From assembly GCA_002483145.1 (NCBI GenBank), contig DLHJ01000003.1, positions 248,001 to 312,000 of the forward strand: DNA of 64,000 nucleotides, read 5' to 3'. Under the pieces are notes generated by a model, which saw nothing but the letters and a program-made list of their open reading frames with translations, was not told the origin of the DNA and made no database searches. Position 1 is the first letter of the stretch. Every line of letters begins with the position of its first letter. The position numbers were made by a program, and so were the translations under genes. Of the stretch, positions 25,203 through 55,439 are shown in pieces. This DNA is from Cellvibrio sp. UBA7671 (GTDB lineage Bacteria > Pseudomonadota > Gammaproteobacteria > Pseudomonadales > Cellvibrionaceae).

Positions 25203-25207
25203 CACCA

Positions 25208-26849: not shown

Positions 26850-26861
26850 GACCAGAATCCT

Positions 26862-27899: not shown

Positions 27900-27958
27900 A
27901 GGTAACCCTGATTGTGTTGAGTGTTAATGAAAGAACAGGTTAAACATCGGCAAAAAAA

Positions 27959-35416: not shown

Positions 35417-36216
35417 AAAGTGCAGTTCTGAAAAGTGCGGTTCTGAAAAGTGCAGTTTTGAATGAGCATCGAATTGTGAAAAAACATTTGGTTTTATTGC
35501 GCGGCCTTGCGCGCGAAGCGGCGCACTGGATGGACTTTCCCCAGCAACTGGCCCAGAAACTGGGCAGTGACTGGACTATTCATTGCATTGATTTTCCCGG
35601 CTGCGGCAGCCAGTTTCAGCAGCCAGCGCTGGCCTCAATCCAACAGATGACCGACTACGCGCGCGCGCAAATCAGCGCATTAAAAATATCGCAACCCGTT
35701 TATGTGATCGGCATTTCCATGGGAGGAATGATCGCGCTGAATTGGGCCCAGCAATTTCCGCAAGAGCTTGCCGGCACAGTTCTGATTAATTCAAGTGCGG
35801 GCGATCAGCCCCTGCACTGGCGTTTGCGCCCGCGCGCCTGGCCGGCGATTATCGCTGCGCTCTTACTACCCATTCGCTGGCGCGAACACCTGGTGTTGCG
35901 CCATGTCAGTAATAACCGTGTGAATTTCAATGCCCATTTGCAGCAGTGGCTTGCGATTCAAACGCAACATCCGGTTTCGCGCGCAACCATCATTAGCATG
36001 CTGGGTGCCGCTGCGCGATTTCGCCCGCAGCGAGATTGCACGGTGCGCGGATTAATTATCGCCAGCGCGGGTGATCGCTTTGTTAATTGCAACGCAAGCA
36101 AAGACCTCGCACAGCGATTTAATTGGCCACTAGCGTTGCATCCGGATGCAGGTCACGACTTACCAATAGACGATCCCGAATGGCTCTGCCAAGCATTAGG
36201 AGCCTGGCTCAGTTAA
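35407..36216 (+). CDS. Alpha/beta hydrolase with repeated N-terminal leader
   Basis: The hydrolase core starts at about residue 25 with HLVLLRGLAREAAHW, has the nucleophile elbow GISMGG and ends with HPDAGHDLPIDDP, the probable catalytic-His region. If translation begins at the GTG at 35407, the protein opens with three LKSAV repeats from a 15-bp minisatellite; a later GTG near 35476 would remove them. It overlaps the end of the M14 gene and converges on the halogenase-like gene below, whose 3' end overlaps its own by 21 bp. The substrate is unknown; the core resembles lipolytic or thioesterase-type enzymes. Confidence 0.8.
   Translation: MVLKSAVLKSAVLKSAVLNEHRIVKKHLVLLRGLAREAAHWMDFPQQLAQKLGSDWTIHCIDFPGCGSQFQQPALASIQQMTDYARAQISALKISQPVYVIGISMGGMIALNWAQQFPQELAGTVLINSSAGDQPLHWRLRPRAWPAIIAALLLPIRWREHLVLRHVSNNRVNFNAHLQQWLAIQTQHPVSRATIISMLGAAARFRPQRDCTVRGLIIASAGDRFVNCNASKDLAQRFNWPLALHPDAGHDLPIDDPEWLCQALGAWLS
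35411..35455. repeat. Three in-frame copies of a 15-bp minisatellite
   Basis: The unit is TTyTGAAAAGTGCrG, repeated at 35411, 35426 and 35441 with one or two changes. It straddles the stop codon of the M14 gene (35414-35416) and the start region of the hydrolase, where it is read as LKSAV repeats. Confidence 0.85.
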
Positions 36217-37740
36217 TTTTCTGTCATTCATCAACAGCGCTTTATGTGACGGAAAATTCAGCGCGCAGCCCTCAACAAAATTAGCGACTTCGCATTCGCG
36301 ATAAAGATCACCTTTGCCCTGCCCCGGCTGATTGGGCGCAAGCGGCGGAAACGCCCCGTAGCCTGCCAGTAGACAATGCCAGGATGCGGCATTGAAGGCG
36401 GGTTTGATTTTTCGTTGCGCAAATTCCTCCTCCAGATCACCGCAGCGAAACCACACATCCAATAATTGCAGCAAGGATTCGGGCATGTGTTTATTGTCGC
36501 GGTTCGCGCGCCAATAACCTGCGTCGTCCCCCGCGCCATTAACCAACCCACGCGTGTTGAGTTTGTAATGCGCGAGAATGTAATCGCGCACGCCTTCAAA
36601 ATGATTATTCACTGTGCGATTAAATTGTTCGCGCCCACCACAGGTGAATTGATGCTGGTCCAGCGCATCGATTAAAGCTTCAATCGTCAATTGCACCAAA
36701 TGTAATGCGGTGGCTTCCAGCGGTTCGATAAACCCTTGCGACAATCCCAAGCCAACGCAATTGTAGGCCCAGTGTTGCTCCAATTGCCCTACACGCATTT
36801 TCAGATGACGGCACTCCTGCGCCGAATCACTCACCCCCAGGTGCGCGCGTAATTCTGCCTCTGCCTGATCCTTGCTAATAAATTGACTGCTGTAAACATA
36901 GCCATTTCCGCTGCGGTGCCTCAGCGGAATATGCCAACACCAGCCTGCAGTTAATGCGGTAGAACGGGTCTCCACCGGAAAATGTTGCGCGGCGGCACTG
37001 GGCATAACCACGGCACTATCGTTAAATAATTGCTGTGCGTAAGAGCGAAACGGCACGCCCAAACCCTGTTGCATTAACAGCGAGGCAAAGCCCGTGCAGT
37101 CGATAAAAAAATCACCGTCGATCACATCGCCGGCGCGGGTTTGGAGCGCGCTAATATCTCCCGCGTCATTGCGCAGCACCTGCGCAAAGGTTGCCTGGCG
37201 ATGCACTACACCGCGCTCTGCAGCAACCCGCGCCAGATAGCGCCCGAGCAATTGCGAATCAAAGTGATAGCCGTACTCCATGTGAAAGGGAAAACTTTTT
37301 GGTGCAACAGGCGCTTTGCCTTGCCGCGCCAATTCACCATTAACAAAAAACCGCTCAGGCTCCGTTACCACATTCAGACCCAGACGACGTGTGCGGCAAT
37401 TGGTAAAAAATGCGCGCTCGTTAAAAACATCCGGCTGGGAATAAAAGGGATGGGAATAATTGCTAAGGCCGGAAGCGGGGCTCCAGCCAACAAAGCGAAT
37501 ATTGGCTTTGTAAGTCGCCTGGCATTCCGGCATCCATTCGCTCTCGGGAATGTCGAGCGTTTTAAAAAAACGCTTCAGCGAGGGAGTAGAACCTTCGCCT
37601 ACACCAATAATAGGAATTTCCGGCGCTTCGATTAAGGTTATCTGGACTTGCTCACGCGGCCATTGTTTTGCAAATAAATTCGCTGCCATCCAGCCAGCAG
37701 TGCCACCGCCGAGGATTAGGATGCGCCATGGTTTATCCAC
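36196..37740 (-). CDS. Tryptophan-halogenase-like flavoprotein (second of pair)
   Basis: The 514-residue protein is of the flavin-dependent halogenase family. The FAD motif is GGGTAGWMAA (near residue 11), the WxWxIP halogenase signature is WCWHIP, the lysine proposed to carry the hypohalite appears in TYKANIRF, and GFIEPLEATALH covers the glutamate region near the chloride site. Free FADH2 would have to come from a reductase that is not in the window. The gene starts 8 bp inside its partner, so the two are cotranscribed from 39250. Such paired genes commonly accompany Caulobacter-type TonB receptors; the molecule halogenated is unknown. Confidence 0.88.
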   Translation of the reverse strand: MDKPWRILILGGGTAGWMAANLFAKQWPREQVQITLIEAPEIPIIGVGEGSTPSLKRFFKTLDIPESEWMPECQATYKANIRFVGWSPASGLSNYSHPFYSQPDVFNERAFFTNCRTRRLGLNVVTEPERFFVNGELARQGKAPVAPKSFPFHMEYGYHFDSQLLGRYLARVAAERGVVHRQATFAQVLRNDAGDISALQTRAGDVIDGDFFIDCTGFASLLMQQGLGVPFRSYAQQLFNDSAVVMPSAAAQHFPVETRSTALTAGWCWHIPLRHRSGNGYVYSSQFISKDQAEAELRAHLGVSDSAQECRHLKMRVGQLEQHWAYNCVGLGLSQGFIEPLEATALHLVQLTIEALIDALDQHQFTCGGREQFNRTVNNHFEGVRDYILAHYKLNTRGLVNGAGDDAGYWRANRDNKHMPESLLQLLDVWFRCGDLEEEFAQRKIKPAFNAASWHCLLAGYGAFPPLAPNQPGQGKGDLYRECEVANFVEGCALNFPSHKALLMNDRKLTEPGS

Positions 37741-39250
37741 CTTGGGTCACCTCGCGCGTGACACCGGCGTACTGAAATAAAAAATCGTCATGGGTTGGCA
37801 ATTGCGCAAGAGGCTTGCGCTTGGCCGTCGCAATTTGCTCAAGCATCGCGCTCAATTCACTGGCGGGAGGCAAATCAGCACTGGGGTGATAATCGCGCGG
37901 CACGATTCCCTGCCCCAGCATGACTTGCAGCCAGGAAGAATCGAGAAAAATATCGCCTGCATCATTGACCACTGAGCCAGTCTCGCGAAACAGCGCCATT
38001 TTGTGTGCGAGCCGTTCCGGAATCGGCATGTTGCGTAAATACCGCCAGAAGTCGTTATCGTCACGCTCGTTCAAGTGGTAATGCAAAATAATAAAATCGC
38101 GCACGGTTTCGTATTCGCGTTTTGAGTCCTGATTGTATTCATTAACCTGCGCAGCGCTGAAACCTGCATTGGGAAAATTTTTGGCGAGGCGCACTATGGC
38201 TGATTGGATTAAATGAATACTGGTGGATTCAAGTGGTTCCAAAAATCCGCTCGACAGGCCAACGGCAATAACATTTTTATTCCACTGTTGCAGTGTCCGC
38301 CCGGTTTTAAACTGAATGGGTTTGGGATCGGCAAGCGCAACTGAATCAAGGTTGTTCATTAAGATATGCGCAGCTTCATCGTCACTTAAATACTGCGAGC
38401 TATAAACCAATCCATTGCCGTTGCGGTGGGTCAGTGGAATTCGCCACTGCCAACCCACCTTATGGGCGATGGCGCGAGTATAAGGCAAGGTTTTTTCAAA
38501 GCGCTGCGAGGGAACTGCCAGCGCGCGATCACAGGGGAGCCAATGTCCCCACTCTTCGTAACCGGTACGCAGCGCGCCCTGAATCAGTAAGCCGCGCATA
38601 CCGCTGCAATCGATAAATAAATCGCCCGCAATTTGCTGACCATTTTCCATCTGCAAGGCTTCAACAAAGCCGGAATCCGGATTGATTTTTACCGAACTGA
38701 TTTTCCCCTCGGTGCGCACCACACCAGCCTGTTCGCTCAACTTGCGCAGATAGCGGCCATAGAGGGCAGAATCAAAATGATAAGCATAAGGGAGCTGGTA
38801 GAGCGGATCGTTGCTATTAAATTTTCCAAACACACCTGCGTTACAACACAGGTAATTTAAATCAAATTCCCACAGCGCAGCGGAGCTCAACCCCTGCTGA
38901 CGCGCGCGCAACCAATAGTGCTGGAATGAACTGTAGCCAAGGGTAGCTCCCGGCGCACCGAAGGTGTGAAAGTAGCTCTCGCCGCGCTGCTTCCAATTAT
39001 CGAAACGTATGGCCATTTTGATGGTGGCCCGGGTCTCGCGCAGAAACTCTGCCTCATCCAAGCCCAGCACCGCATTGAAAGTTTGTATCGGCGGAATTGT
39101 TGCCTCACCCACGCCGATGATACCGATTTCCTCTGATTCAACTAATTCAATATCAACGCGCTGCTGCAACATTTTTTTTAACAGCGCAGCACTCATCCAC
39201 CCCGCTGTACCGCCCCCAGCAATAACTATTTTTTTGATTGGTTTATTCAT
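37733..39250 (-). CDS. Tryptophan-halogenase-like flavoprotein (first of pair)
   Basis: The 505-residue flavin-dependent halogenase-like protein has AGGGTAGWMSAALL (FAD), WQWRIP (halogenase signature), the proposed catalytic lysine in ATIKMAIRFDNW and GFLEPLESTSIH. An ATG at 39250 with AAGGAATT upstream is preferred over a start at 39304. It follows the TonB-receptor terminator on the same strand and overlaps the second halogenase by 8 bp. Full-length motifs argue for an enzyme rather than a decayed copy. Regulation by the LacI protein is not visible at its own promoter region. Confidence 0.9.
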   Translation of the reverse strand: MNKPIKKIVIAGGGTAGWMSAALLKKMLQQRVDIELVESEEIGIIGVGEATIPPIQTFNAVLGLDEAEFLRETRATIKMAIRFDNWKQRGESYFHTFGAPGATLGYSSFQHYWLRARQQGLSSAALWEFDLNYLCCNAGVFGKFNSNDPLYQLPYAYHFDSALYGRYLRKLSEQAGVVRTEGKISSVKINPDSGFVEALQMENGQQIAGDLFIDCSGMRGLLIQGALRTGYEEWGHWLPCDRALAVPSQRFEKTLPYTRAIAHKVGWQWRIPLTHRNGNGLVYSSQYLSDDEAAHILMNNLDSVALADPKPIQFKTGRTLQQWNKNVIAVGLSSGFLEPLESTSIHLIQSAIVRLAKNFPNAGFSAAQVNEYNQDSKREYETVRDFIILHYHLNERDDNDFWRYLRNMPIPERLAHKMALFRETGSVVNDAGDIFLDSSWLQVMLGQGIVPRDYHPSADLPPASELSAMLEQIATAKRKPLAQLPTHDDFLFQYAGVTREVTQGG

Positions 39251-39368
39251 TGGTTCGCAATTCCTTAGACTGCGCGTAACGGCGTCGCTATGGGTTAATA
39301 CCAAGCCGGGTCACACTAAAGATAGCCGCTTTTATCGCAGCACATCGCTAAAGTCTCACCCATCAACA

Positions 39369-42355: not shown

Positions 42356-42369
42356 TGCAACCGGTTGTA
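42356..42369. promoter_or_regulatory. LacI-family operator O1 upstream of the TonB receptor
   Basis: TGCAACCGGTTGTA is a palindrome with one mismatch, centred 48 bp before the receptor start codon. It shares its core CAACCGGTTG with the two other sites in this divergent region. Confidence 0.85.
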
Positions 42370-42649: not shown

Positions 42650-43684
42650 CTAGCTCAGGGTACTATTGCGAACGATGATATCGGTGGGTAGGAATCCGGA
42701 ATCCACCCGTTCACCATCAATCATGGCGAGCAACTTTTCCACCATTAACCGGCCACCCTGCTCCCGATCCTGACGGATGGTGGTAATCGAAGGGGTGTAA
42801 AAGCGGGCCAGGGAAATATCGTCATAACCAACTACCGCGACATCGGTCGGTACGCGGAGGCCATGCTCGGTAAGCGAGTTAATTGCCGCCATGGCTATGG
42901 CATCGCTCAAGCAAAACAATCCATCAAATTTGTGCCCGCTGGCGATGAGACGCTGCGCCGCCTCCCGGTGGCTGTCGCGACCAACCCCTAATGCCACTTC
43001 CAGCACCGGGTTGGGGGCCAGACCAGTATTCATCAAGGTTTGGTGGTACCCCTCATAACGCAACCGGCCTTCGGGGGTCGACCAATCGCCGATAATGGCA
43101 ATTTGCTGGCGGCCTATCTCGAGTAGATGACGAGTGGCCAACGCCCCGCCCAAGTGGTTATCGCCGCCCACAGTGCAGTAGCGCTGATCCGGCAACTTGG
43201 CTCCCCAGACCACTACCGGTGTATTGCCATCTGCAATGCGGTTTAGGTCCTCATGGCAATCCGCCTGACCGGCCACAATCAGGCCGTCGCAGTTGATCCG
43301 GCGCAAACCATCGTGGCCGCTGGCTACCGCATGCAAGCTCAAGCCAGACAGGAGCATTTCGTGCCCTTGCTCAATCAGGCTAAAAGAGATGGAACCCAAT
43401 AATTCCAGGAAAAATGGATCGGTAATTTGCCAGCGGGCTTCATCCGCCGAGGGAATAACAACGCCGATAGTGAGGGATTCTTTGAGCCGAAAATTGCGCG
43501 CCTGGGTATTCAGGCGATAGTTATGCTCCTTGGCCAGCGCCTGAATTTTCTCGCGGGTCTCCAAATTGACCAGCTCACTGTTTTGCAATGCACGCGAAAC
43601 AGTTGACTTGGAGACCCCCGCCATTTTCGCCAGATCCACCATTTTCAACGCGGTTTTTTTTATCGTTGTAGTTTCTTTTTTCAT
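42650..43684 (-). CDS. LacI-family transcriptional regulator
   Basis: The 344-residue repressor has the LacI helix-turn-helix KMVDLAKMAGVSKSTVSRAL near residues 14-33, the hinge-helix region LAKEHNYRLN and a periplasmic-binding-like effector domain beginning TIGVVIPSADEARW. CLSDAIAMAAI and VVGYDDISLARF are typical of the family. The ATG at 43684 is preferred over a TTG at 43705. It is divergent from the GH97 gene with a perfect palindromic operator between them and two more sites at the TonB receptor, so it is the probable local regulator with autoregulation. The inducer is likely a product of the imported glycan. Confidence 0.92.
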   Translation of the reverse strand: MKKETTTIKKTALKMVDLAKMAGVSKSTVSRALQNSELVNLETREKIQALAKEHNYRLNTQARNFRLKESLTIGVVIPSADEARWQITDPFFLELLGSISFSLIEQGHEMLLSGLSLHAVASGHDGLRRINCDGLIVAGQADCHEDLNRIADGNTPVVVWGAKLPDQRYCTVGGDNHLGGALATRHLLEIGRQQIAIIGDWSTPEGRLRYEGYHQTLMNTGLAPNPVLEVALGVGRDSHREAAQRLIASGHKFDGLFCLSDAIAMAAINSLTEHGLRVPTDVAVVGYDDISLARFYTPSITTIRQDREQGGRLMVEKLLAMIDGERVDSGFLPTDIIVRNSTLS

Positions 43685-43767
43685 CGCCAGCCACTCGTTG
43701 AGCAATTCAGCGGAAACCTGCCGCTACACCAAATTGGCATCATAGTTTGTTTTCCGGGCAATCACCA

Positions 43768-43781: not shown

Positions 43782-43899
43782 AATCGAACCAAAATCCAAT
43801 CTCAAGCACTTGCCCCAATTTAATAACACTGGTTTAATTAGTTGCTAAAAAACGCTCGTTTTACTTTCCGGCAACTGCGATGCAGTGCAAGGGGCTCCG

Positions 43900-45930
43900 A
43901 TGAAACACCTGTATTCCAACCTTGTTATGGGGCTGGCCCTGATCCTTTTGATCTTGCCTGGCAAGGCGGACACTACACAAAGCTACCAGTTGCGGTCACC
44001 CGATAACTCCCTTGATGTGCAGCTAGAGGTGCGCCCGGAGGGGGTGTTCTACAGCCTAAACTACCAACACAGATCGGTAGTAAAGCCCTCTCGCTTGGGA
44101 CTCAATATTAAAGGGCAAGAACCTCTGGCCAGCGCATTTGAGGTCTATAAACACAGCGAGCGCGAGGTGAACCAGCAATGGCAGCAACCTTGGGGAGAAC
44201 AACAGACCATCAGCGAGCACTATCGTGAGCTTCGTCTGGAACTTAGCGAAACCAGCGCCAAGCCCCGGCGATTACATCTGGTGATACGCGCGTTTAACGA
44301 TGGTATTGGCCTGCGCTACGAGCTACCTGATCAGCCGCACCTGAAGAATTTCGTGATCGAGGACGAGCTGACTGAATTTGTATTGGCCGAAAATAGCCAC
44401 ACCTGGTGGCTCCCCGCCTATCGCAACTGGGGCCCGGAATATCAATACCTCAAATCCGCACTCAGTTCAGTCGATGTGGCCTTCACCCCAATGACTCTGG
44501 AGGCGCGCCACTACGCGCTGGCGATTCACGAGGCGGCGCTGGTCAACTACGCGAGCATGACCCTGCGCCTGCAGGGGGATAACAGCAAAACCCTGAAAGT
44601 GGACTTGGTGCCCTGGCCGAACGGCGACAAGGTGCGCACATCTACCCCCATGAAGTCCTCCTGGCGCAGCATTCAAATCGCACCAAAAGCCATAGATCTG
44701 TTGAACTCTCACCTGACCTTGAACCTGAATGAAGCACCCACGCCCGAGGCGCTCGCTAATGCCGATCGCTACCTGAAACCCGGGAAGTACATGGGAATCT
44801 GGTGGGAAATGCATATCGGCGAAAAGGATTGGAGCCCCGGCCCCAAACAGGGCGCCACCACGGCGCGCGCCAAACAATATATCGACTTCGCCGCGCAACA
44901 CGACATTAGTGGCCTGCTCATCGAAGGCTGGAATAAAGGATGGGAGGGTGAATGGTGGCAGCGCCCGCCGACATTTATCTTTGATCAACCGGTGGACGGG
45001 CTGAATTTGGAAGAGGTGGTGCGCTACGGCAGAGAAAAAGGCGTGGCTGTTATCGGTCACCACGAAACCGCGGCGGGCGTTACCTATTACGAGCAGCAAA
45101 TGGAGTCAGCCTTTGGTTACTACCAAAAGCTTGGCATTCACAGCGTAAAAATGGGCTACGTGGGTAAGCGTATCGACGGTGACCAGTGGCACCACGGCCA
45201 ATACATGGTGAACCATTTCCAGCGACTGGTGGATACCGCCGCGCGCCATCAGGTGATGGTTAACGCCCATGAAACCGTCACCGATACTGGCCTGCGCCGT
45301 ACCTATCCCAACTTGATGACCCGGGAGTGCGTGCGCGGTATGGAGTACAACGGCGGTAGCCCTGACAGCGGCAACCTGCCCGATCACACCACCATCATTC
45401 CCTTTACTCGCGGCCTCTCCGGCCCCATTGATTTCACCCCCGGAATCTTCAATTTCGACTACCAAAAATATCGCCCCAATAACCGGGTTCCGTCGACGCT
45501 CGCCAACCAGCTGGCGCTCTACGTGGTGATCTACAGCCCATTGCAAATGGTGGCAGACTTGCCGGAAAACTATGCAGGACATCCCGCCTTTCAATTTATC
45601 GACGATGTGCCCACTGACTGGCGCGAGAGCCGGGCCTTGCAGGGCGAGATAGGTGAATATCTGGTGGTCGCCCGACAAGATAAAAACAGCGCCGACTGGT
45701 ACCTGGGCGCTATCACTAACCAAAAAGCGCGCGCGCTCAGCGTAAAACTCGATTTTCTCCAGCCCGATGCTGACTATGAGGCACAGATCTATCGCGACGG
45801 CAAAGATGCAGATTGGGAAACCAATCCTGAGTCCTACGAGATTGTCCGCCTGCGCGTGAATGTGAAGACTCAACTCCAACTGGATTTAAAGCCAGGCGGA
45901 GGTACCGCTATACGGCTAAAAAAACGCTAG
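43900..45930 (+). CDS. GH97 family glucosidase (SusB-like)
   Basis: The 676-residue secreted enzyme has a signal peptide (about 1-24), an N-terminal beta-sandwich (about 30-285), a (beta/alpha)8 catalytic domain (about 290-560) and a C-terminal sheet. Putative catalytic/calcium residues lie in GHHETAAGV (E389), VNAHETVTDTG (E458) and RECVRGMEY (E476, E482). HHET at the position of the general base is the pattern of inverting GH97 alpha-glucosidases such as SusB, rather than of the retaining alpha-galactosidases, but this is by eye. An AAGGGG site supports the ATG at 43900 over GTG 43885. Controlled by the divergent LacI gene, it likely hydrolyses the sugar imported by the TonB receptor. Confidence 0.88.
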   Translation: MKHLYSNLVMGLALILLILPGKADTTQSYQLRSPDNSLDVQLEVRPEGVFYSLNYQHRSVVKPSRLGLNIKGQEPLASAFEVYKHSEREVNQQWQQPWGEQQTISEHYRELRLELSETSAKPRRLHLVIRAFNDGIGLRYELPDQPHLKNFVIEDELTEFVLAENSHTWWLPAYRNWGPEYQYLKSALSSVDVAFTPMTLEARHYALAIHEAALVNYASMTLRLQGDNSKTLKVDLVPWPNGDKVRTSTPMKSSWRSIQIAPKAIDLLNSHLTLNLNEAPTPEALANADRYLKPGKYMGIWWEMHIGEKDWSPGPKQGATTARAKQYIDFAAQHDISGLLIEGWNKGWEGEWWQRPPTFIFDQPVDGLNLEEVVRYGREKGVAVIGHHETAAGVTYYEQQMESAFGYYQKLGIHSVKMGYVGKRIDGDQWHHGQYMVNHFQRLVDTAARHQVMVNAHETVTDTGLRRTYPNLMTRECVRGMEYNGGSPDSGNLPDHTTIIPFTRGLSGPIDFTPGIFNFDYQKYRPNNRVPSTLANQLALYVVIYSPLQMVADLPENYAGHPAFQFIDDVPTDWRESRALQGEIGEYLVVARQDKNSADWYLGAITNQKARALSVKLDFLQPDADYEAQIYRDGKDADWETNPESYEIVRLRVNVKTQLQLDLKPGGGTAIRLKKR

Positions 45931-46044: not shown

Positions 46045-46058
46045 TGCAATCGATTACA
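46045..46058. promoter_or_regulatory. Second type of LacI-family operator, upstream of the dehydrogenase genes
   Basis: TGCAATCGATTACA is a near-palindrome (6 of 7 pairs) of LacI-family size whose core AATCGATT differs from the CAACCGGTTG sites at the TonB receptor. It lies 159 bp before the small-subunit gene. If real, it would need a different LacI-type repressor encoded elsewhere. Confidence 0.5.
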
Positions 46059-46216: not shown

Positions 46217-46822
46217 ATGACCCTACCCGCTCTACCGAATGGCGCAACCGGTGTTTCGCGCCGCGACGCCATTAAACAACTTGCACTCGCCTGTGGCCTG
46301 GTACTCTCGGCTAATTCACTCTCAGCGCTGGCCGCTTTTACACCACCAACGGATTTAACGCGCAGCAAAAAGACCCTGCTTAACACCGACCAATTAGCAC
46401 TGGTGCGCGAACTGGGTGAAATCATTATCCCCACTACTGACACTCCCGGCGCCATCGCCGCTGGCGTACACGATTTTATCAATCACTTTGCCGTTTATTG
46501 CGCGAGCAAAGAAGAACAGCAAGGGCTGCTAGCGGGATTGAAACGCATCGATGATTCCGCACAAACGCGCTTCAGCAAACCGTTTATCAGCGCGAACAAA
46601 ACACAGCAAATCGAACTACTCACCAACATGGAAAAGGCAGCCGATGGTTTCACGGCCGATGACCGCACCTTCTTCAAACAATTAAAAGCGCTGGTGACCT
46701 TCGGTTACTACACCTCGGAAATTGGGGCAACGCAAGAATTGGCTTACCTCGCCATCCCCGGCGGCTATAAGGGTAATGTTAAATTCAAAGAAACGGGCAA
46801 AGCCTGGGCGCTCCCGTATTAA
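46217..46822 (+). CDS. Tat-exported gluconate-2-dehydrogenase-subunit-3-like small subunit
   Basis: The 201-residue protein has a Tat-type signal VSRRDAIKQLALACGLVLSA (about 12-31) and a domain of the Gluconate_2-dh3 family (LVRELGEIIIPTTDTPGA...GVHDFINHF). In known FAD dehydrogenase complexes the small subunit carries the Tat signal and brings the folded GMC subunit across the membrane as a hitch-hiker. The GMC gene follows 63 bp downstream and has no signal of its own, which fits this role. The ATG at 46217 with GAGG is preferred over a GTG at 46157 that also has a good ribosome-binding site. Confidence 0.85.
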   Translation: MTLPALPNGATGVSRRDAIKQLALACGLVLSANSLSALAAFTPPTDLTRSKKTLLNTDQLALVRELGEIIIPTTDTPGAIAAGVHDFINHFAVYCASKEEQQGLLAGLKRIDDSAQTRFSKPFISANKTQQIELLTNMEKAADGFTADDRTFFKQLKALVTFGYYTSEIGATQELAYLAIPGGYKGNVKFKETGKAWALPY

Positions 46823-46885
46823 CAGGAATTGCCCCTGATCACCTTTAACCTCGTTGCCCCGTTAATTTCTTAAGAAGTCATCTCC

Positions 46886-48619
46886 ATGGATAAAAATATT
46901 TACATCATCAAAAGCACCGAAATTTTTGATGCAATAGTTGTCGGCTCTGGTATTTCCGGTGGCTGGGCCGCTAAAGAACTCACTGAAAAAGGGCTGAAAA
47001 CATTAATGGTCGAACGCGGCCGCCCGGTAGAACACCGCAAAGATTATGTCGGCGAAGGTGTTAAAGCCTGGCAAATGCCTTTTCGCGGCAAAGTCGAAAA
47101 AGCGATTGTCGATGAACAGCATTACGTGCAACAAAAATGCTACGCCTTTAACGATGCCACCAAACATTTTTTTGGCAACGACAAAGACTATCCCTACAGC
47201 ACGCCCAAAGATAAACCCTTCGATTGGATTCGCGGCAATCAATTAGGTGGAAAATCTCTCTTGTGGCATCGTCAATCCTATCGCTGGAGTGAACATGACT
47301 TTACTGCCAACGCGCGCGATGGCCACGGCGTAGACTGGCCGATTCGCTACAAGGATATTGAGAAGTGGTATGACCACGTAGAAATCCATGCGGGCATTAG
47401 CGGTTCAGCCGAAAATCTGGAGATATTGCCCGACAGTAAATTTTTACCGCCGTTTGAAATGAACGCGGTCGAAAAAGAAATGAAAGCGCGCATCGAAAAG
47501 AAATGGAAAACGCGCAAACTCATTATGGGTCGCACTGCACATTTATCAGTGCCAGCCCCACACCACACCGCACAGGGGCGCATCCAATGCCAGACGCGCA
47601 ATGAATGCCAAAAAGGCTGTTCCTTCGGCGCCTATTTTTCTACCCAAAGTTCAACCTTGCCATCGGCATTGGCCACCAATAATTTAACTATCGCGACTAA
47701 CAGTGTTGTGCACAGTGTTATTTACGACCCCAAAACCAATCGCGCAACCGGCGTGCGGGTGATTGATGCAGACACGCTGGAGACGCGCGAATATTTTGCC
47801 AAAGTGATTTTCCTGTGCGCATCTACCCTCGGCACAACACAAATCATGCTGAACTCAAAAAGCGAAAGTTTCCCTACCGGTATCGCCAATTCATCCGGCG
47901 CACTTGGCCATTATTTGATGGACCATTTGTACGGCGCGGGTGCATCCGGACGCGTGGAAGGTTTTGAAGAAGAATATTATTCCGGCCGTCGCCCCACCGG
48001 TTTGGTGATGCCGCGTTTTACCAACTACAGCGAAATGAATCCCAAGTTCCTGCGCGGCTACCAGATCACCGGCAGTGCTATGCGTCAAGGCTGGGACACA
48101 TTTAGTCAGCAAGACGGTTTTGGTGCAGACTACAAAAAAGCAATCCGCAGTGCAGGCAGTTGGATATTCAATCTGGGCGGCTCAGGCGAAATGCTACCGC
48201 GCTATGAAAATCAGGTTTCCCTGCATCCGACGTTGAAAGATAAATGGGGCATTCCACAATTACATATTGAGTGCGACCTGTCAGAAAACGATTGGAAAAT
48301 GTTTGAAGATATCGCCGACACCTGTGCTGAAATTCTGGAAGGCATTGGAGTGAAAGATATAACGAAAAAAATCGATGCGAAAAAAGATTGGCACCCCGGC
48401 CTTGCCATTCATGAAATGGGTACAGCGCGTATGGGTAAAGATCCCAAAACCTCGGTACTCAACGGCTGGAATCAGGCACATGATGTACCTAACTTATTTG
48501 TCACCGATGGTTCTTCCATGGCATCCTGCGCTTCGCAAAATCCATCACTGACTTATATGGCGCTCACTGCGCGCGCCGCTGATTATGCAGTGCAGCAATT
48601 GAAGCTCGGAAAGATTTAG
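46886..48619 (+). CDS. GMC-family FAD dehydrogenase with a [3Fe-4S]-type cysteine motif, probable glucoside 3-dehydrogenase
   Basis: The 577-residue FAD enzyme has the dinucleotide motif VVGSGISGGWAAKEL (about 18-32), GNQLGGKSLLWHRQSYRW (FAD-binding), and H509 in HEMGTARMG and N552 in SQNPSLTYMALTAR as catalytic pair. C235-x5-C241-x3-C245 is a motif seen in bacterial FAD-glucose dehydrogenases, where it binds a [3Fe-4S] cluster, and argues for a dehydrogenase rather than an oxidase. No signal peptide is present, so export depends on the Tat small subunit upstream. Glucoside 3-dehydrogenase/LacA-type activity (oxidising C3 of glycosides) is inferred from the pair of subunits; the usual cytochrome subunit is not in the window. 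Confidence 0.82.
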   Translation: MDKNIYIIKSTEIFDAIVVGSGISGGWAAKELTEKGLKTLMVERGRPVEHRKDYVGEGVKAWQMPFRGKVEKAIVDEQHYVQQKCYAFNDATKHFFGNDKDYPYSTPKDKPFDWIRGNQLGGKSLLWHRQSYRWSEHDFTANARDGHGVDWPIRYKDIEKWYDHVEIHAGISGSAENLEILPDSKFLPPFEMNAVEKEMKARIEKKWKTRKLIMGRTAHLSVPAPHHTAQGRIQCQTRNECQKGCSFGAYFSTQSSTLPSALATNNLTIATNSVVHSVIYDPKTNRATGVRVIDADTLETREYFAKVIFLCASTLGTTQIMLNSKSESFPTGIANSSGALGHYLMDHLYGAGASGRVEGFEEEYYSGRRPTGLVMPRFTNYSEMNPKFLRGYQITGSAMRQGWDTFSQQDGFGADYKKAIRSAGSWIFNLGGSGEMLPRYENQVSLHPTLKDKWGIPQLHIECDLSENDWKMFEDIADTCAEILEGIGVKDITKKIDAKKDWHPGLAIHEMGTARMGKDPKTSVLNGWNQAHDVPNLFVTDGSSMASCASQNPSLTYMALTARAADYAVQQLKLGKI

Positions 48620-48641
48620 GAAAATCCTGAAAAATATACTT

Positions 48642-48712
48642 TCGTCATACCCGCGAACGCGGGTATCCATAAAATCAACATTCTGGATTCCAGCTTTCGC
48701 AGGAATGACGAG
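48642..48712. repeat. REP-like palindromic element (CGTCAT type)
   Basis: The first unit (48642-48670) contains CGTCATACCCGCGAACGCGG. The second (48683-48712) ends CTTTCGCAGGAATGACGAG. They are inverted copies of the widely dispersed bacterial element whose usual form is CTTTCGCGGGAATGACG. The 180-bp spacer between the GMC and TIM-barrel genes otherwise shows nothing. Confidence 0.8.
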
Positions 48713-48799
48713 TTCCTAGTAAAAAAGCACCACCACAAGTACGACGACTACAGCACTATAAAACACATAACCCGTTCGTTATAAAAAAAGGAAACCACT

Positions 48800-49678
48800 A
48801 TGAAGCTATCCAAAACAATAATGGCCAACGCAATAAAAGCCATCACTATGGCCGCGATTGCGAGTATCAGTGTAGCGACTTTCGCCGCCGATATTGCGCC
48901 CACCTCACCACAGTTGAGCGTGCAGCTCTGGTCAATTAAAGATGATGTCGCCAAAGATTTTGAAGGCACATTGAAAAAACTCAAAGCCATGGGCTTTAAC
49001 GGTGTGGAATTCGCTGGCAACTTCGGCGCTTATGAAAAAGATCCAAAAGGCTTGAAAGCCTTTTTGGAAAAAACCGGATTGAAAGCCTCAGGCGCACACG
49101 TACATTTTGATAAATTGTCGCCCGAAAATTTTGATGCAACGGTTGCCTTCTACAAAGCGATCGATTGCAAATATTTAATTATCCCAATGGACAAACGCGC
49201 ATTTACCCCAGAAGGTGCCAAAGAAGTTGCCGCCGAACTGGAAGTGATCCAGAAAAAATTAGCGCCCCATGGCATGCACACCGGCTACCACAATCACAAA
49301 CCAGAAATGCTCGGCGACATGGGTAAAACACCTTGGGATGTGATCGGCAAAGGCACATCGCACGGCGTAATTCTGCAGCAAGATGTGGGTTGGACAGAAG
49401 TGGCGGGCAAAAATCCAGTGGATTTTGTTAAGGCTTACCCTGGTCGCACTATTACCACTCACTACAAAGCAGCCGCGCCAGATGAAGGCAATAAAGAAAA
49501 CCCGATCCTCGGTAAAGACACCACTGACTGGAAGGCATTGCTTGAAGCCAATAAAACCGTCGGTGGCACACTCTGGTTGGTGGTGGAGCAAGAAGTCTAT
49601 CCAGAAGGTATGACGCCAATGCAAAGCGTAGAAGCGTCACTGAAAGGCTTGCAAAAAATTATCGCCGATACCAAATAA
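48800..49678 (+). CDS. Secreted TIM-barrel sugar isomerase/epimerase-like protein
   Basis: The 292-residue AP-endonuclease-2/xylose-isomerase-like barrel has a signal peptide (about 1-29). Probable metal ligands lie in MGFNGVEFAG (Glu), YHNHKPE (His), LQQDVGWTE (Asp), TITTHYK (His) and LVVEQE (Glu). Exported members next to GMC/Gfo-Idh dehydrogenases include enzymes that cleave or isomerise 3-keto-glycosides; that is the most likely role given the dehydrogenase pair 180 bp upstream. AAGGAAA precedes the ATG. A terminator follows. Activity on sugar phosphates, as the family name implies, is unlikely in the periplasm. Confidence 0.75.
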   Translation: MKLSKTIMANAIKAITMAAIASISVATFAADIAPTSPQLSVQLWSIKDDVAKDFEGTLKKLKAMGFNGVEFAGNFGAYEKDPKGLKAFLEKTGLKASGAHVHFDKLSPENFDATVAFYKAIDCKYLIIPMDKRAFTPEGAKEVAAELEVIQKKLAPHGMHTGYHNHKPEMLGDMGKTPWDVIGKGTSHGVILQQDVGWTEVAGKNPVDFVKAYPGRTITTHYKAAAPDEGNKENPILGKDTTDWKALLEANKTVGGTLWLVVEQEVYPEGMTPMQSVEASLKGLQKIIADTK

Positions 49679-49697: not shown

Positions 49698-49720
49698 AAA
49701 ACGCCGCCATGCGGCGTTTT
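49698..49720 (+). terminator. Terminator after the TIM-barrel gene
   Basis: AAAACGCCGC and GCGGCGTTTT around a 3-base loop. It separates the epimerase-like gene from the CE2 esterase gene. Confidence 0.9.
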
Positions 49721-49757: not shown

Positions 49758-50828
49758 ATGAACCTGACACGTTTTTCTATCGCATTAGTTAGCCTTTCTT
49801 GGATTAGCCTGAGCGCACACAGCGCCGAACTGCAGCAATTGCCCACCCATACCAGCAGCCGCGTATTGGTGACCAGTGACGAGGCAGGAAATAAAGCCTA
49901 TGAATATTCATGGCCTGCCATCTATTTTGAAACTGCTTTTAACGGCGATTCACTAACGATAAAATTTGATGATGACCAAAACAATTTTCACCTGATTATT
50001 GATAGCCAAACACCGATCGCAATCAAAAAGCCCGGCAAACAGGATTATGTTGTACCTAACTTAACCCCCGGCAAACATCAAGTAAGGCTGGAAAAAATCA
50101 GCGAGACGCAATCATCCACTGGTCGCTTCCTCGGCTTCTACAGCGACGACAAAGCCGCAAAACTTCCAGAGCGCAAACGCCAAATTGAATTTATCGGCGA
50201 TTCATTTACTGTGGGTTACGGCAATACATCCAGCAGCCGTGAATGTACCAATGAAGAACTGTTCAATACCACCAACTCGCAACTCGCTTTCGGCCCACTG
50301 ACCGCAAAACATTTTAATGCGGACTATCAAATAAATGCCTCGTCGGGCTTTGGCATAGTGCGCAACTACAATGGCCACTCACCCGATAAAAACCTGATTG
50401 GTTTCTATCCATTTACATTGCACAACAACAGTTATATCTATGCTGGCAATTGGAAGCCGCAAGTGATCGTTATAGGTTTGGGCACTAACGATTTCTCTAC
50501 CAAACTCAATGACGGTGAACGCTGGAAAACGCGTGCAGAATTGCAGCAGGATTATGTGAAAAAATACACGCAGTTTGTCAAAACACTGCACACGAAGAAT
50601 CCGAAAGCGCATTTTATTTTGATGGCATCAGACAAGATGGAAGGAGAATTGGCTGCGCAGGTGGGCAATGTAGTCGCCACGCTTAAAGCCGATGGTTTAA
50701 AGAAAGTGGATTCAATTATTTTCAGTGGATTGGATTATCAAGGCTGCCACTGGCACCCCTCGGCAAAAGACGACAAGCTACTCTCTGATTTGTTGATTGA
50801 TTACTTGAGCAAAAACAAAGCTTGGTAG
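49758..50828 (+). CDS. CE2-family acetylesterase (SGNH hydrolase)
   Basis: The 356-residue secreted esterase has a signal peptide (about 1-23), an N-terminal jelly-roll (about 30-135) and an SGNH domain (about 140-350), the two-domain architecture of carbohydrate esterase family 2 known from Cellvibrio and Clostridium. Active-site motifs are IEFIGDSFTVGYGN (Ser149), GLGTNDF (block III Asn/Asp) and GCHWHPS (His333). It removes acetyl groups from xylan or glucomannan-type glycans. GTGGAG precedes the ATG. It is flanked on both sides by terminators and is probably monocistronic. Confidence 0.87.
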   Translation: MNLTRFSIALVSLSWISLSAHSAELQQLPTHTSSRVLVTSDEAGNKAYEYSWPAIYFETAFNGDSLTIKFDDDQNNFHLIIDSQTPIAIKKPGKQDYVVPNLTPGKHQVRLEKISETQSSTGRFLGFYSDDKAAKLPERKRQIEFIGDSFTVGYGNTSSSRECTNEELFNTTNSQLAFGPLTAKHFNADYQINASSGFGIVRNYNGHSPDKNLIGFYPFTLHNNSYIYAGNWKPQVIVIGLGTNDFSTKLNDGERWKTRAELQQDYVKKYTQFVKTLHTKNPKAHFILMASDKMEGELAAQVGNVVATLKADGLKKVDSIIFSGLDYQGCHWHPSAKDDKLLSDLLIDYLSKNKAW

Positions 50829-50900: not shown

Positions 50901-53114
50901 TTACACTTTATTTCCCAACGGTAATTTCGTCAGCGGCTTCCCTGTGGCGGCAAACAATGCATTCGCCACCGCACCAGCAATTGGTGGTAACCCAGGCTCA
51001 CCGACGCCCGATGGCATTTCAGCTGAAGGAACTATGTGTACTTCCACTTTCGGCATTGCATCAATACGCAGCAGCGGATAATTATGAAAGTTGGATTGCT
51101 CCACTACACCTTTTTTGAGGGTAATGGCTTCGCCCAGTGCTGCGCTTAAGCCCATGCCGATACCGCCCTCCATTTGCGCGCGGATCACATCGGGGTTTAC
51201 GGCAACACCGCAATCCACTGCGCAGACAACACGCTCGACTTTAAAACTACCATCGTCTTTCACACGCACTTCGGCAACTTGCGCAACCCAAGTACCAAAG
51301 GATTTGTGCACCGCAATACCACGCGCTACACCTTCGGGTAATGAATTTCCCCAAGCACTTTTTTCCGCCGCGAGATTTAATACACCCAATGCGCGCGGTG
51401 TATCGGCGAGTAACTTTCGGCGAAAAACAACCGGGTCCTTATTTGCTGCCTTAGCGAGCTGATCAATAAAAGTCTCAACAACAAACGCATTGCCCGAGTG
51501 CCCCACAGAACGCCACCAGAGCGTGGAAACTTTAATGGGAATCTCGGTGGCCTGCACTTGCAGATTGGGAATTGTGTAATGCATGTCCTCAATACCTTCT
51601 GCAACTGTGCCGTCCACCTCACCCTGGATAAATCCTTCAAAGGGTGTGCCGCGCAAAATTGCTTGCGCAACAGCATGATGCTGCCAGGCAACAACCTTAC
51701 CCCGGGACGAAACTGCCCCGCGGATATGATGAACCGCCATCGGTCTGTAGCGCGCGTTGAGGATTTCATCTTCGCGCGTCCACAGCATTTTTACGGCGCG
51801 CCCCGGAATTTGTTTTGCGATATTTGCCGCATCCACCACATAATCACTCGGGCAGGCGCGACGACCAAAACTACCACCAGCATAGAGGGTATTAATTTTT
51901 ACATGCTCGGGTTTAATGCCCGTAGCCGCCGCCACTTGCTGTTGATCTATCGTGGGCATTTGGCAGGCGAACCAGAGTTCACAGCTATTCTTTTCCACTT
52001 TAACAACACAGTTAATCGGTTCTATCGCCGCGTGAGTAACATAGGGCAATTCGTATTTTGCCTCTATGACCTGTTTTGCTTTGGCCAAGGCTGCAATGGC
52101 ATCCCCCGCATTTTTTACACTGATACCCGTTTTACTCGCTGCATCATGACAGGCTTTAAATAATTCATCGCTGCTACGGGTTTCACAGGCCGATAAATCC
52201 CATTCAATTTTTAACAACTCACGCGCTTTTTTTGCCGCCCAAAAATTCTCGGCCACCACCGCAACACCACGCGGAAACTCCACTACGGCAACCACTCCGG
52301 GCGATGCTTTGGCTTTTGCTGCATTGACTTTTTTAACCTTGCCAAACACTTGCGGTGGATAAGCAACTAATGCAGTCAGCATACCGGGCAGTTGGATATC
52401 CTGTGTATAGATTGCTTTACCGCTGGTTTTTTCATTGCTGTCTTTGCGCGGAATGGTTTTGCCAATTAATTGAAAATCTTTTGGATCTTTAACTGCAGGT
52501 TTTTGTGGTACAGGCAAGAGTGATGCTTTCGCAGCGAAAGCGCCGAAGTTACTGCTGCGCGTGCCGTGGGAAATGATTCCATTACTCACACGAATTTCTT
52601 CCGCAGGTACTTTCCACTCTGCGGCGGCGGCGGCAACTAACATGGCACGCGCGGCCGCGCCCGCCTCACGCAATTGCATCCAGGAGTTGGCGATTGATGA
52701 TGAACCGCCAGTACCCTGTGTTGGCCCCCAAAATAAATTGTTGTAGCGGTGATTATCTGCAGGTGCAAATTCCCACTGCATTTGCTCCCAACTTGCATCC
52801 AACTCTTCTGCAACCAATGAGGTTAAACCCGTACTCACGCCCTGCCCCATATCCAGATGTTTTACTATCATGGTGACTTTGCTGTCGGGGGTAATTTTTA
52901 AAAAGGCGTTAAATACCGGAGCATCCGCTGCTGTTGTCGATGCAGCCGCTATTGATTTATCTGCCGCTGCAACTGATGCACTGCCAATAAGAAAACCGCT
53001 GCCAAGTAATAATCCACCACCGGCACTTACCGCTTGTAAAAAAGTGCGGCGCGATAGAGCTGAAGATCTGGAATTTTGTTGCGCTTGGATAGTTTGCCGT
53101 TTGAGGAAGTTCAT
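50901..53114 (-). CDS. Molybdopterin hydroxylase large subunit, isoquinoline 1-oxidoreductase beta (IorB)-like
   Basis: The 737-residue molybdenum-binding subunit has a Tat signal [18 protein letters not shown] (about 22-39), so the holoenzyme is periplasmic. Molybdopterin contacts are suggested by AGGSFGRR and [15 protein letters not shown], and the catalytic Glu lies in [17 protein letters not shown] near the C-terminus. Family members hydroxylate aldehydes or N-heterocycles. Its start codon shares a base with the stop of the 2Fe-2S gene (TGATG), and XdhC- and MocA-like genes lie upstream, forming a maturation-plus-enzyme operon. No FAD or cytochrome subunit is in the window, so the electron acceptor is unknown. 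Confidence 0.88.
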
Positions 53115-53578
53115 CAGGCTTTACCTCCCAATTTGTCAGCGGCTTGATGGATCGCACCGCGGATTCGGTGATAGGTTGCGCAGCGGCAAAGATTACCACT
53201 CATAGCAGTATCGATATCTGCATCGGTGGGGTTTTTATTGGTCTGCAATAGCGCAGTAGCCGACATGATTTGTCCTGACTGGCAATAACCGCATTGCACC
53301 ACATCCAGCTCGCGCCATGCTTGCTGCACCGCTTGAAACGCGGGTGAATTTATGCCCTCGATGGTTTCAATTTTTGCACCCTCTGCAGCGGAAATGGGCA
53401 AGCTGCAGGAGCGTACCGGGCTGCCATTCATGTGCACTGTGCAAGCTCCACAAAGCGCCATGCCGCACCCCAGTTTGGTGCCGGTCATGTGCAATTTGTC
53501 GCGCAGCACCCAGAGCAGAGGGGTATTAGGATCCATATCCAATTTGCGTTTTTTACCATTAATCGTAAGCGAAATCAT
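53114..53578 (-). CDS. 2Fe-2S small subunit, IorA-like
   Basis: The 154-residue ferredoxin-type protein has the two [2Fe-2S] motifs: [16 protein letters not shown] with its three clustered Cys plus the later SCSLP, and [10 protein letters not shown] with [12 protein letters not shown]. It passes electrons from the molybdenum centre of the large subunit. The AAGGAG ribosome-binding site 6 bases before ATG 53578 fixes the start and excludes the longer reading from 53611. No signal peptide is present; it probably crosses with the Tat-targeted large subunit. Confidence 0.92.
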
Positions 53579-53645
53579 GGGTAACTCCTTTGCAATAAAT
53601 TCAGTCGGCAAGCAACGGTTACATTTAGCTGCGCTGATCGGCGGC

Positions 53646-53670
53646 TCCTGCTTTCGCTGGAATGACGATC
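53646..53670. repeat. Half copy of the CGTCAT-type REP-like element
   Basis: CTCCTGCTTTCGCTGGAATGACG matches the second unit of the pair at 48642-48712. It lies in the 131-bp gap between the mocA-like and iorA-like genes. Confidence 0.65.
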
Positions 53671-53709
53671 AATTCAAAAACATCTTGAATAATTACTAAA
53701 TGGTTTTCG

Positions 53710-54336
53710 TTAAATCGCTTTTTTCAAATAGGTAGTGAGATCGGCTGGTGTATCTATATCAAACTCAGCAGAGGGCATAGCAACAGGAACAATTTGCTTG
53801 GTACAACCCAACAGCAAATTTTTTGCACCGCGATCGCCACGACACTCATACAACCGCGCTTTAAAGCGCGCCGGAAAAATCGCGGGCACGCCCAAGGTAT
53901 TGGCAAAACTCGCGCAAGCTATCTTGTCCGGGTTTTTACACCAGGTGCGATATAAGTTGCGCAAATCCTGCGCGCTGATTAACGGCTGGTCGCTCAACAA
54001 TACCAATACCGGATTACTGTTTTGCAAATGTTTAATGCCAAATGCGAGCGAATTTCCCACGCCCAATTTCCACGCGGGAAATTCCAGCAATTCGATCGGG
54101 CGATCGGTAAATCTTTTTGATTTTGCCTCCAGCTCTGGCTGCGCTTGTAATAGCTGGGGATAAAAGGCTCCACCTACAACAAAGATACGCTCGGGTTCAA
54201 GCGTGCGTGCAGTGGCGATACTGGTGGCCAGCAACGGTCGCCCCTGCCAATCCGCCAACTGTTTGCATCCGCCAAAACGGCTCGCGCTACCGGCCGCTAA
54301 TATCAGGCAATCGATTGTTATCTTGTCAGCCATCAT
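53710..54336 (-). CDS. MocA-like molybdenum cofactor nucleotidyltransferase
   Basis: The 208-residue MobA/MocA-type enzyme has LILAAGSASRFGGCKQLADWQG near the N-terminus (nucleotide-binding) and VLLSDQPLISAQDL (metal-binding Asp). MocA makes the cytosine dinucleotide form of the cofactor used by xanthine-dehydrogenase-type enzymes, which fits the iorAB-like genes downstream. The start ATG overlaps the stop of the XdhC-like gene as ATGA, with GAGGG upstream. Confidence 0.85.
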   Translation of the reverse strand: MMADKITIDCLILAAGSASRFGGCKQLADWQGRPLLATSIATARTLEPERIFVVGGAFYPQLLQAQPELEAKSKRFTDRPIELLEFPAWKLGVGNSLAFGIKHLQNSNPVLVLLSDQPLISAQDLRNLYRTWCKNPDKIACASFANTLGVPAIFPARFKARLYECRGDRGAKNLLLGCTKQIVPVAMPSAEFDIDTPADLTTYLKKAI

Positions 54337-55439
54337 AAGGATGCCCTCATGTTCGATAAAATAAAGGGCGCATCTGCTTCGCGGGAAACAATAGAATGCA
54401 TCTGCATTTCGTCTTGAGCCATTTCACTTAAAGGCAACGCATTGCTACCAAAGACTTTTGCATGGCATTCAGCCAATACCGATAGCGCAATACTCTCAGG
54501 TAAATCTCCTCCCAGCGCCAAACCCATAGGCCCTGCGATAGCGTAACGCAATTGTGCTTCGTTCAGTCCTGCTGTCGCCAATACTTCTGCCTTACGTTTG
54601 GCAGGGCCGAGCAAACCTATGTACGGATTTACCAGCTCGCGCGTTTGTAGCGCCGCAACTGCCGCTGCATCCAATCGCAAATTGTGATGGGCAATCACGA
54701 CGCCATCGATTTGGTGCAATAAATCGCTTGATAATTCCGCCACCGATTCATTCAGCGCAGTAATGCCTGCTGGAAAATTTTCGCGCTTACTGGAATTTAA
54801 ACGCTGGTCGGCCAAAGTCACCCGCCACCCCATCACCAGCGCCAAATGGCACAGGGGAATAACATCCACACCACTGCCAAGGATTAATAAATGCGGCAGT
54901 GGATTAATTAAGGTGACAAGATTTTTTTCTTCACTGCCAGCGCTATCAAGCACTACTGGAGGGGATTGCAAACTACCGTGTTGACGCTGTGAAAATTTTC
55001 GCTGGCACGGCGTAAAACCGGCGTACGCCTGATCAAGTTGCAATGCATAATTGCACGCCTGATGCTGTTGCAAACAAGCGAGCACCGCAGGTAATTGGAG
55101 AAAATCATTGCGCGCATGGCAGGGGTGCAACAAAATTTCCGCTGCGCCACCGCAACCTATACCAAGGCGCCAGGCAATATTGCTGTCATCCGCCGCGTCG
55201 TAAACCACACGGCGCGACTTACCCAAAGCTACCACCTTGCGCGCTTGCAATAGCAAATCTGATTCTATACAGCCGCCGCTTAATAACCCTAGCTGATGCC
55301 CCGCATCGCTGAGCAACATGAGCGCACCGGTTTTGCGATACACCGAACCGCGCGTATGAATCACTGCGCCCAAAACCCAATTGGCCTCATCTTTCAGCGG
55401 CAACCAGGAAGCGAGCAGATGGTAAAAATGATTGGACAT
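54333..55439 (-). CDS. XdhC-like molybdenum enzyme maturation factor
   Basis: The 368-residue protein has an N-terminal XdhC/CoxI domain (VLGAVIHTRGSVYRKTGA, LLSGGCIESDLL) and a C-terminal Rossmann domain (LLILGSGVDVIPLCHLAL). XdhC proteins bind the cofactor, promote its sulfuration and insert it into the target enzyme. It heads the minus-strand operon xdhC-mocA-iorA-iorB. No ribosome-binding site stands out; the start at 55439 is set by homology of the N-terminus. Between 55440 and 55639 no gene is visible. Confidence 0.88.
   Translation of the reverse strand: MSNHFYHLLASWLPLKDEANWVLGAVIHTRGSVYRKTGALMLLSDAGHQLGLLSGGCIESDLLLQARKVVALGKSRRVVYDAADDSNIAWRLGIGCGGAAEILLHPCHARNDFLQLPAVLACLQQHQACNYALQLDQAYAGFTPCQRKFSQRQHGSLQSPPVVLDSAGSEEKNLVTLINPLPHLLILGSGVDVIPLCHLALVMGWRVTLADQRLNSSKRENFPAGITALNESVAELSSDLLHQIDGVVIAHHNLRLDAAAVAALQTRELVNPYIGLLGPAKRKAEVLATAGLNEAQLRYAIAGPMGLALGGDLPESIALSVLAECHAKVFGSNALPLSEMAQDEMQMHSIVSREADAPFILSNMRASL

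Follow-up and report, generated by a model that had tools for sequence, protein, structure and literature searches.

We consider it probable that a three-gene operon of Cellvibrio sp. UBA7671 constitutes the periplasmic half of an oxidation-elimination, or 3-keto-glycoside, pathway, with a beta-manno- or gluco-manno-oligosaccharide as the likely substrate. The operon lies in a 64,000-nucleotide stretch of contig DLHJ01000003.1 (GenBank assembly GCA_002483145.1, positions 248,001 to 312,000), here called the window, and encodes a small subunit with a signal for twin-arginine translocation (Tat), a GMC dehydrogenase and an exported TIM barrel; a check of the open reading frames (ORFs) of the window confirmed all three (Table 1). 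Most likely the operon cuts sugar chains non-hydrolytically, by oxidising a sugar and eliminating its neighbour. A preliminary description of this DNA had proposed C3 oxidation by a Tat-exported GMC pair followed by non-hydrolytic cleavage by the barrel, and the proposal is upheld by indirect evidence from homology, predicted structure, active-site residues and synteny.

A putative exported oxidising pair

The twin arginines of the small subunit, already seen in the preliminary description, are R15 and R16, in an N-terminal region that reads SRRDAIKQLALACG; an alternative GTG start 60 nucleotides upstream would extend the protein beyond the ATG at 46217. Twin arginines occur within the first 60 residues in 58 of 70 small-subunit ORFs of relatives, and those shown among the others include KR forms and two doubtful ORFs. 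A PDB search gave no solved relative of the small subunit up to E 1, and an NCBIfam search matched no family.

The GMC protein passes both Pfam models (GMC_oxred_N, E 2.7e-15; GMC_oxred_C, E 1.3e-23). The residues first picked out in the preliminary description of this signal-less protein, C235-x5-C241-x3-C245 and H509/N552, proved correct: they align with both paralogues in the same genome and with fructose dehydrogenase, and are invariant in 68 of 68 relatives. The motif predicts a bound [3Fe-4S] cluster. The protein starts near its FAD-binding strand, which fits the role of a passenger on the small subunit; such hitchhiker export by a small subunit is known from fructose and glucose dehydrogenases.

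The exported barrel as a putative lyase

Downstream of the GMC gene, the preliminary description had placed a signal-bearing TIM barrel. Its N-terminus is indeed hydrophobic, as it is, by a crude test of the region preceding the barrel, in 74 of 80 relatives; three of the six that fail are ORFs of 746-1056 residues, that is, with over-long starts. These 80 are the best of 228 relatives that the TIM family retrieved from named genomes, and counts for named loci refer to them. Viral contigs scanned once with the TIM protein yielded no relative. In a separate set of 120 genomes, 52 gave any TIM match and 41 a strong one, and 21 congeners have the protein. Named loci and loci from this second set overlap in part (for example L099, L100 and L101 with G001:C10, G079:C9 and G113:C29).

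The Pfam match of the barrel, to AP_endonuc_2 (E 5.5e-07), scores 30.0 bits, slightly below the curated cut-off of 31.1. By structure comparison its predicted fold matches lyases, the nearest annotated structures being the 3-keto-beta-glucoside 1,2-lyases AL1 and BT1, with the beta-eliminase AtOGE close behind, and a profile search returned lyases at 1.6e-35 against 2e-12 for IolE, with YcjR absent among matches at E 1e-5. Residues H164, D195, H221 and E263 correspond to the AtOGE metal ligands H132, D163, H189 and E233, and H166 to its base H134; all five are kept in 80 of 80 relatives.

Might the barrel instead be the hydratase of the pathway, with the lyase supplied by a DUF1080 protein coded elsewhere, such as the one at C15:222k, 26 kb before the window? 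DUF1080 (PF06439) is certainly a frequent companion: of the 41 relatives whose TIM match is strong, 38 have it, and it also lies within the stretch at 25 of the 80 named loci and in four of five fully annotated plasmid clusters. Yet we regard this alternative as unlikely. The small subunit, GMC, TIM, MFS carrier and second barrel occur without any PF06439 protein in two relatives, G072 (99% complete) and G044 (83%), so that in G072 cleavage must fall to a barrel or to some enzyme from a different family; a third relative lacking PF06439, G007, has the TIM protein but, at the limits applied, neither GMC nor second barrel. The closest annotated structures bear lyase names. Moreover, an unexported barrel of the type found on contig C5 adjoins a reductase in 41-42 of the 80 named loci, as LgdB2 and AtHYD do, which makes it the better hydratase candidate. 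None of the seven window proteins tested carries PF06439, and the copies in the genome all lie outside the window. The DUF1080-free relatives and the C5 candidate favour, without proving, the reading that the window barrel is probably a lyase.

The rest of the proposed pathway and the electron acceptor

Candidate partners for such a lyase are present in the same genome. A run on contig C5 encodes a barrel of 349 residues, a Gfo/Idh/MocA oxidoreductase and an MFS carrier; second barrel and reductase are the set of the known 3-keto-glycoside pathway, here on another contig. Three PF06439 proteins score above the cut-off: one on C11, one on C3 and one on C15, at 26 kb before the window. Two further GMC/small-subunit pairs lie on C4 and C9, their GMC proteins 52 and 50% identical to that of the window, and the C4 pair adjoins another barrel, with a Tat signal.

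We propose that the small subunit would carry the FAD/[3Fe-4S] GMC subunit across the inner membrane via Tat, and that the pair would oxidise C3 of a beta-linked hexosyl unit, passing electrons to a cytochrome or quinone coded elsewhere. The exported barrel would then bind the 3-keto sugar at a divalent metal, H166 taking the C2 proton while the glycosidic oxygen is expelled; to judge by the fold, the residues and characterised relatives, this would leave a 2-hydroxy-3-keto-glycal and a shortened chain or aglycone. The product may enter the cell by the MFS carrier, after which the 349-residue barrel would hydrate it and the Gfo/Idh/MocA enzyme would convert it by reduction into a hexose, the candidate genes for these steps standing together on C5.

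Where would the electrons go? The preliminary description had remarked that the usual cytochrome c is missing from the locus and had suggested a search of the genome for a partner. The absence itself is real: no closed ORF of at least 50 residues in the whole window contains the haem motif CxxCH, and the window cluster thus lacks the cytochrome c subunit of the three-subunit LacABC or glucoside 3-dehydrogenase type. It is, however, usual here, since a crude filter found one cytochrome candidate in the 80 named loci, and absence looks like a trait of the group rather than an oddity. CxxCH is likewise absent from ORFs of that size in the C9 stretch and from the GMC proteins of relatives (0 of 69).

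The genome does encode other cytochrome c domains, with PF13442 matching in 15 places, a list that is incomplete since PF00034 was not searched; the same limit applies to contig C15, where PF13442 found nothing. The matches nearest a GMC pair fall within long ORFs: one of 1127 residues holds C9:95455, which scores under the cut-off at a distance of about 8 kb from its pair on C9, and one of 1171 residues holds C4:10503, at about 12 kb from the pair on C4. A Hymenobacter cytochrome c used as query gave one match, at 38% identity in an ORF of 1190 residues on C11, which is not a credible partner.

Two clusters elsewhere in the genome deserve description in their own right. The C4 cluster (L013:5384-11055) comprises the Tat-signal barrel, GMC, small subunit and, 3' of the latter, a glucose/sorbosone-dehydrogenase-like protein of 760 residues with two CxxCH motifs; an ORF of 64 residues with one CxxCH overlaps the GMC gene on the opposite strand. 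On C15, about 26 kb before the window (L015:8799-12930), a DUF1080 gene is followed by one for a protein of 1077 residues without a Pfam match at 1e-5, whose translation reads as a DUF1080-like part fused to one resembling cytochrome c and to a later part.

Conservation across genera and plasmids

Gene order is conserved well beyond the genus. The order small subunit-GMC-TIM recurs within Cellvibrionaceae, with an 87% match on a contig of Cellvibrio mixtus J3-8 in the named-genome scan; two other genera (L065, L066) show Gfo-TIM (C5 type)-MFS-small subunit-GMC-TIM, and a third (L067) has the same order as far as its contig reaches. GMC occurs in the stretch of 68 of the 80 named loci, in 58 of them on the same strand and within 600 bp, alongside the small subunit (66), second barrel (42), Gfo (41), MFS (18) and C4-type barrel (12); four of the 12 loci without GMC are on pieces of about 11 kb or less.

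Nine plasmid regions were opened, of which that of Halomonas is unannotated. On plasmids of Xanthomonas sacchari, Hymenobacter, Paracoccus, Ketogulonicigenium and Pseudoalteromonas, GMC and small subunit are accompanied by Gfo and two or more barrels; two of these five also have a cytochrome c, and in Xanthomonas, Ketogulonicigenium and Paracoccus a barrel grouping with AtOGE (100/97 support) takes the expected place of the window-type barrel. A Croceicoccus plasmid has GMC, small subunit, Gfo, barrels and MFS, one of Novosphingobium has GMC, small subunit, one barrel and MFS, and one of Catenovulum has TIM without GMC. In another locus (L168:9863-10846) the ORF start preceding the TIM resembles a Gfo/Idh/MocA N-terminus, perhaps a relic of a lost reductase gene.

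A predicted beta-mannan regulon

A clue to the substrate is a predicted operator. In 14 of 18 congener loci, the window included, the 350 nucleotides upstream of the small subunit contain the palindrome TGTAANCGNTTACA at one mismatch or fewer, against 11 of 9000 regions in a shuffled control; L049, L050 and L052 have it with two mismatches and L059 not at all. G099 and G105, which belong to the 21 congeners with TIM, were left out of this count because their contigs end before the small subunit, and L100 (G079), outside the 18 loci, has no operator at one mismatch. Among named loci such a site stands in only 10 of 52 small-subunit regions, mostly of Cellvibrio type, which makes the operator a trait of the genus.

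The exact motif occurs in eight places in the window's genome, against none for the reversed control. Two sites are at a TonB receptor, two at one GH5 gene and one at a second, the best solved match of both GH5 genes being a beta-mannanase; of the other three, one separates a pentapeptide-GH26 pair from glucuronate isomerase, one is at a triosephosphate isomerase gene and one lies between a LacI gene and a symporter-GH130-epimerase run. GH26 and GH130 enzymes act on mannan. Nine congeners hold 54 exact sites (three for the control), eight of them with one upstream of the small subunit and the ninth, G064, with a one-mismatch site there; as the nine were picked for showing the operator at that gene, this proportion is biased and 14 of 18 is the fairer figure. 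Among the other 46 sites, one faces the same LacI gene (89-98% identical) in all nine genomes, and the rest include six at GH26-like genes (25-33% identity), three at close and three at weak relatives of the GH5 mannanases, six at TonB receptors, two at UxaC and five at triosephosphate isomerase-like genes (read from their N-termini); about ten face unlabelled genes. The pattern suggests a beta-mannan regulon of LacI type to which the oxidative operon belongs, and the company of beta-mannanases is what makes a beta-manno- or gluco-manno-oligosaccharide the probable substrate.

Among the open-licence papers listed, in the portions of text they made available, no report linked a 3-keto pathway to mannan, and the accessible parts of reviews on hemicellulase regulation and on Shewanella sugar pathways are silent on such an operon; nor did the papers listed report a 3-keto pathway in Cellvibrio.

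The window also suggests a different substrate. A SusB-like GH97 gene, a LacI gene and a TonB receptor stand immediately upstream, in the window as in one congener (G095, L050), and the operon might accordingly serve the use of alpha-glucan or maltodextrin together with GH97, much as the preliminary description had set it beside GH97 hydrolysis. We judge this very unlikely and have given up the coupling on linkage counts and operators. GH97 occurs in the stretch of only one of 13 other congener loci and in none of the 80 named loci, and its group carries another palindrome, ACAACCGGTTGT (at one mismatch or fewer), three times, at 42357, 42481 and 43769; these differ from the operator of the operon and are probably operators of the window's own LacI protein. 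AL1 and BT1, besides, are named beta-lyases, and AtOGE is reported to be beta-specific in the accessible part of PMC10628242. Given the rare linkage and the different palindromes, mannan is the likelier context, and a better guess than maltose whatever the chemistry.

An alternative in which the barrel acts on another keto polyol (GMC yielding an inosose for IolE-like dehydration) or is a YcjR-like 4-epimerase is most improbable and was set aside on scores, the barrel reaching 47.7 bits against an IolE (TIGR04379) cut-off of 290, both families ranking below the lyases in profile search and structure, and the operator being of mannan type.

The acetyl esterase context noted in the preliminary description holds in part, CE2 being linked in 8 of 13 congener loci and 8 of the 80 named loci. 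Its nearest curated model is a bifunctional acetylxylan/glucomannan deacetylase, below that model's cut-off, and its best solved relative is a putative acetyl xylan esterase; the gene is possibly on a separate transcript from the operon.

Some observations weigh against the proposal of a mannan-directed oxidation-elimination operon. In an unrooted tree the window barrel shares no clade with a characterised lyase, the lyases lying beyond a 99/100 branch. The window's operator site, taken singly, is not beyond chance at three mismatches (3 matches against 2.5 expected). Finally, the C5 barrel-Gfo-MFS run has no such operator at its start; the first GH5 mannanase gene converges with it, about 450 bp apart.

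Why oxidise glucomannan fragments at all? We speculate, as an unlikely elaboration, that C3 oxidation and beta-elimination serve Cellvibrio as a stereochemical funnel: because the C2 stereocentre is lost on elimination, 3-keto-mannosyl and 3-keto-glucosyl units would give one and the same 2-hydroxy-3-keto-glycal. If so, hydration and reduction would yield a single hexose, bypassing mannose isomerisation, periplasmic electrons would pass straight to the respiratory chain, and CE2 deacetylation would free hydroxyls that need to be oxidised. However, the C2 proton has to leave syn from a beta-glucoside and anti from a beta-mannoside, so a single barrel may be unable to handle both substrates.

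If the broader proposal is true, non-hydrolytic 3-keto glycan breakdown extends to plant-cell-wall specialists, and neither a DUF1080 lyase nor a dedicated cytochrome need accompany the exported barrel clade. The 3-keto route would also be tied to beta-mannan through the predicted regulon, making the substrate question directly testable by expression or deletion.

Other features of the window

Table 1. Position, strand and basis of assignment of the operon and its surroundings (window coordinates).
Feature	Coordinates	Strand	Basis or remark
LacI-family regulator; probably controls the GH97/TonB group, not the operon	42650..43705	-	Inferred from operators
GH97, SusB-like alpha-glucosidase type; probably outside the system	43885..45930	+	Pfam, synteny, palindromes
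LacI-family operator, predicted	46045..46058	.	TGCAATCGATTACA, one mismatch against TGTAANCGNTTACA, 172 nucleotides 5' of the small-subunit ATG
Small subunit, Gluconate_2-dh3 (PF13618), Tat-type signal	46217..46822	+	Pfam, E 1.6e-35
FAD GMC dehydrogenase, no signal of its own, C235/C241/C245 motif, H509/N552	46886..48619	+	Pfam, alignments
Repetitive extragenic palindromic (REP)-like dispersed element, between GMC and TIM genes	48635..48712	.	Genome matches, folding
TIM barrel, exported, xylose-isomerase-like, predicted 3-keto-glycoside lyase	48800..49678	+	Pfam, residues, predicted structure
Terminator-like hairpin, 3' of TIM gene	49698..49720	+	Hairpin scan
CE2 acetyl esterase with signal; neighbour in part of the genus	49758..50828	+	Pfam, synteny

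The REP-like element has 31 genome matches, itself counted, and folds as a strand with z -6.1. Terminator-like hairpins in the region stand at chance level, with seven found against a mean of 7.8 in shuffles.

Beyond CE2, at 50901-55439, lies a molybdenum-hydroxylase-like set (Xdh/Ior-type large subunit, 2Fe-2S subunit, MobA-like and XdhC-like proteins, named from their translations), which is kept 3' of CE2 in several Cellvibrio loci (L099, L101, L103, L105). On the other side, two flavoproteins that read as tryptophan-halogenase-like (36196-39304) adjoin the TonB receptor, an arrangement that recurs with comparable pairs at other TonB receptors of the genome (L187, L191). A run at 24153-28441 resembles a nitrilase/radical-SAM/acetyltransferase (Nit1-type) cluster.

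Comparison with known systems

Fructose dehydrogenase and FAD glucose dehydrogenase (7w2j, 6a2u) share the GMC fold, the three-cysteine motif and the His/Asn pair with the window GMC, but are distant from it (E 1e-37 to 1e-26). They have a cytochrome subunit without counterpart here and oxidise other positions. The barrel is related at 25.6-28.8% identity to AL1 (8tcd, 8tcr) and BT1 (8tct), which form a separate clade; we take these entries to be the structures from Nasseri et al. 2024.

AtOGE of Agrobacterium tumefaciens (8bvk) has all five metal-site and catalytic residues in common with the window barrel, and barrels grouping with it hold the same operon place in the three plasmid-bearing genera named above; it is nevertheless only 31.6% identical over 187 residues and falls in a separate clade, and its operon, in the accessible part of PMC10628242, has an additional oxidoreductase and GlycDH where the GMC/PF13618 pair stands here. 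The levoglucosan pathway of Bacillus smithii (LgdA/B1/B2/C) resembles the one proposed here in its sequence of oxidation, beta-elimination, hydration and reduction and in its two isomerase-like proteins and reductase, but as described in the available portion of PMC7676230 it begins with NAD-dependent oxidation of an anhydrosugar and involves no GMC or Tat-exported pair. A C-glycoside lyase is described, in the part of PMC13273386 that was accessible, as a further case of C3 oxidation and elimination.

Also close in gene content is lactose use in Caulobacter crescentus. According to the accessible part of PMC9007349 it draws on LacABC and DUF1080 together with two epimerases, a reductase and a transporter, and genes of these kinds surround the window-type GMC in relatives; a control search found PF13618 in Caulobacter vibrioides. 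The comparison covered gene content; in that account DUF1080 is the proposed hydrolase and the dehydrogenase has three components, whereas the window cluster is without DUF1080 or cytochrome. The open-licence papers listed contained nothing stating the exported barrel clade, the DUF1080-free version or a mannan regulon. Pathways of C3 oxidation and elimination are thus already known; what is new is an exported barrel clade, a version of the cluster that does without DUF1080 and cytochrome, and a predicted mannan regulon.

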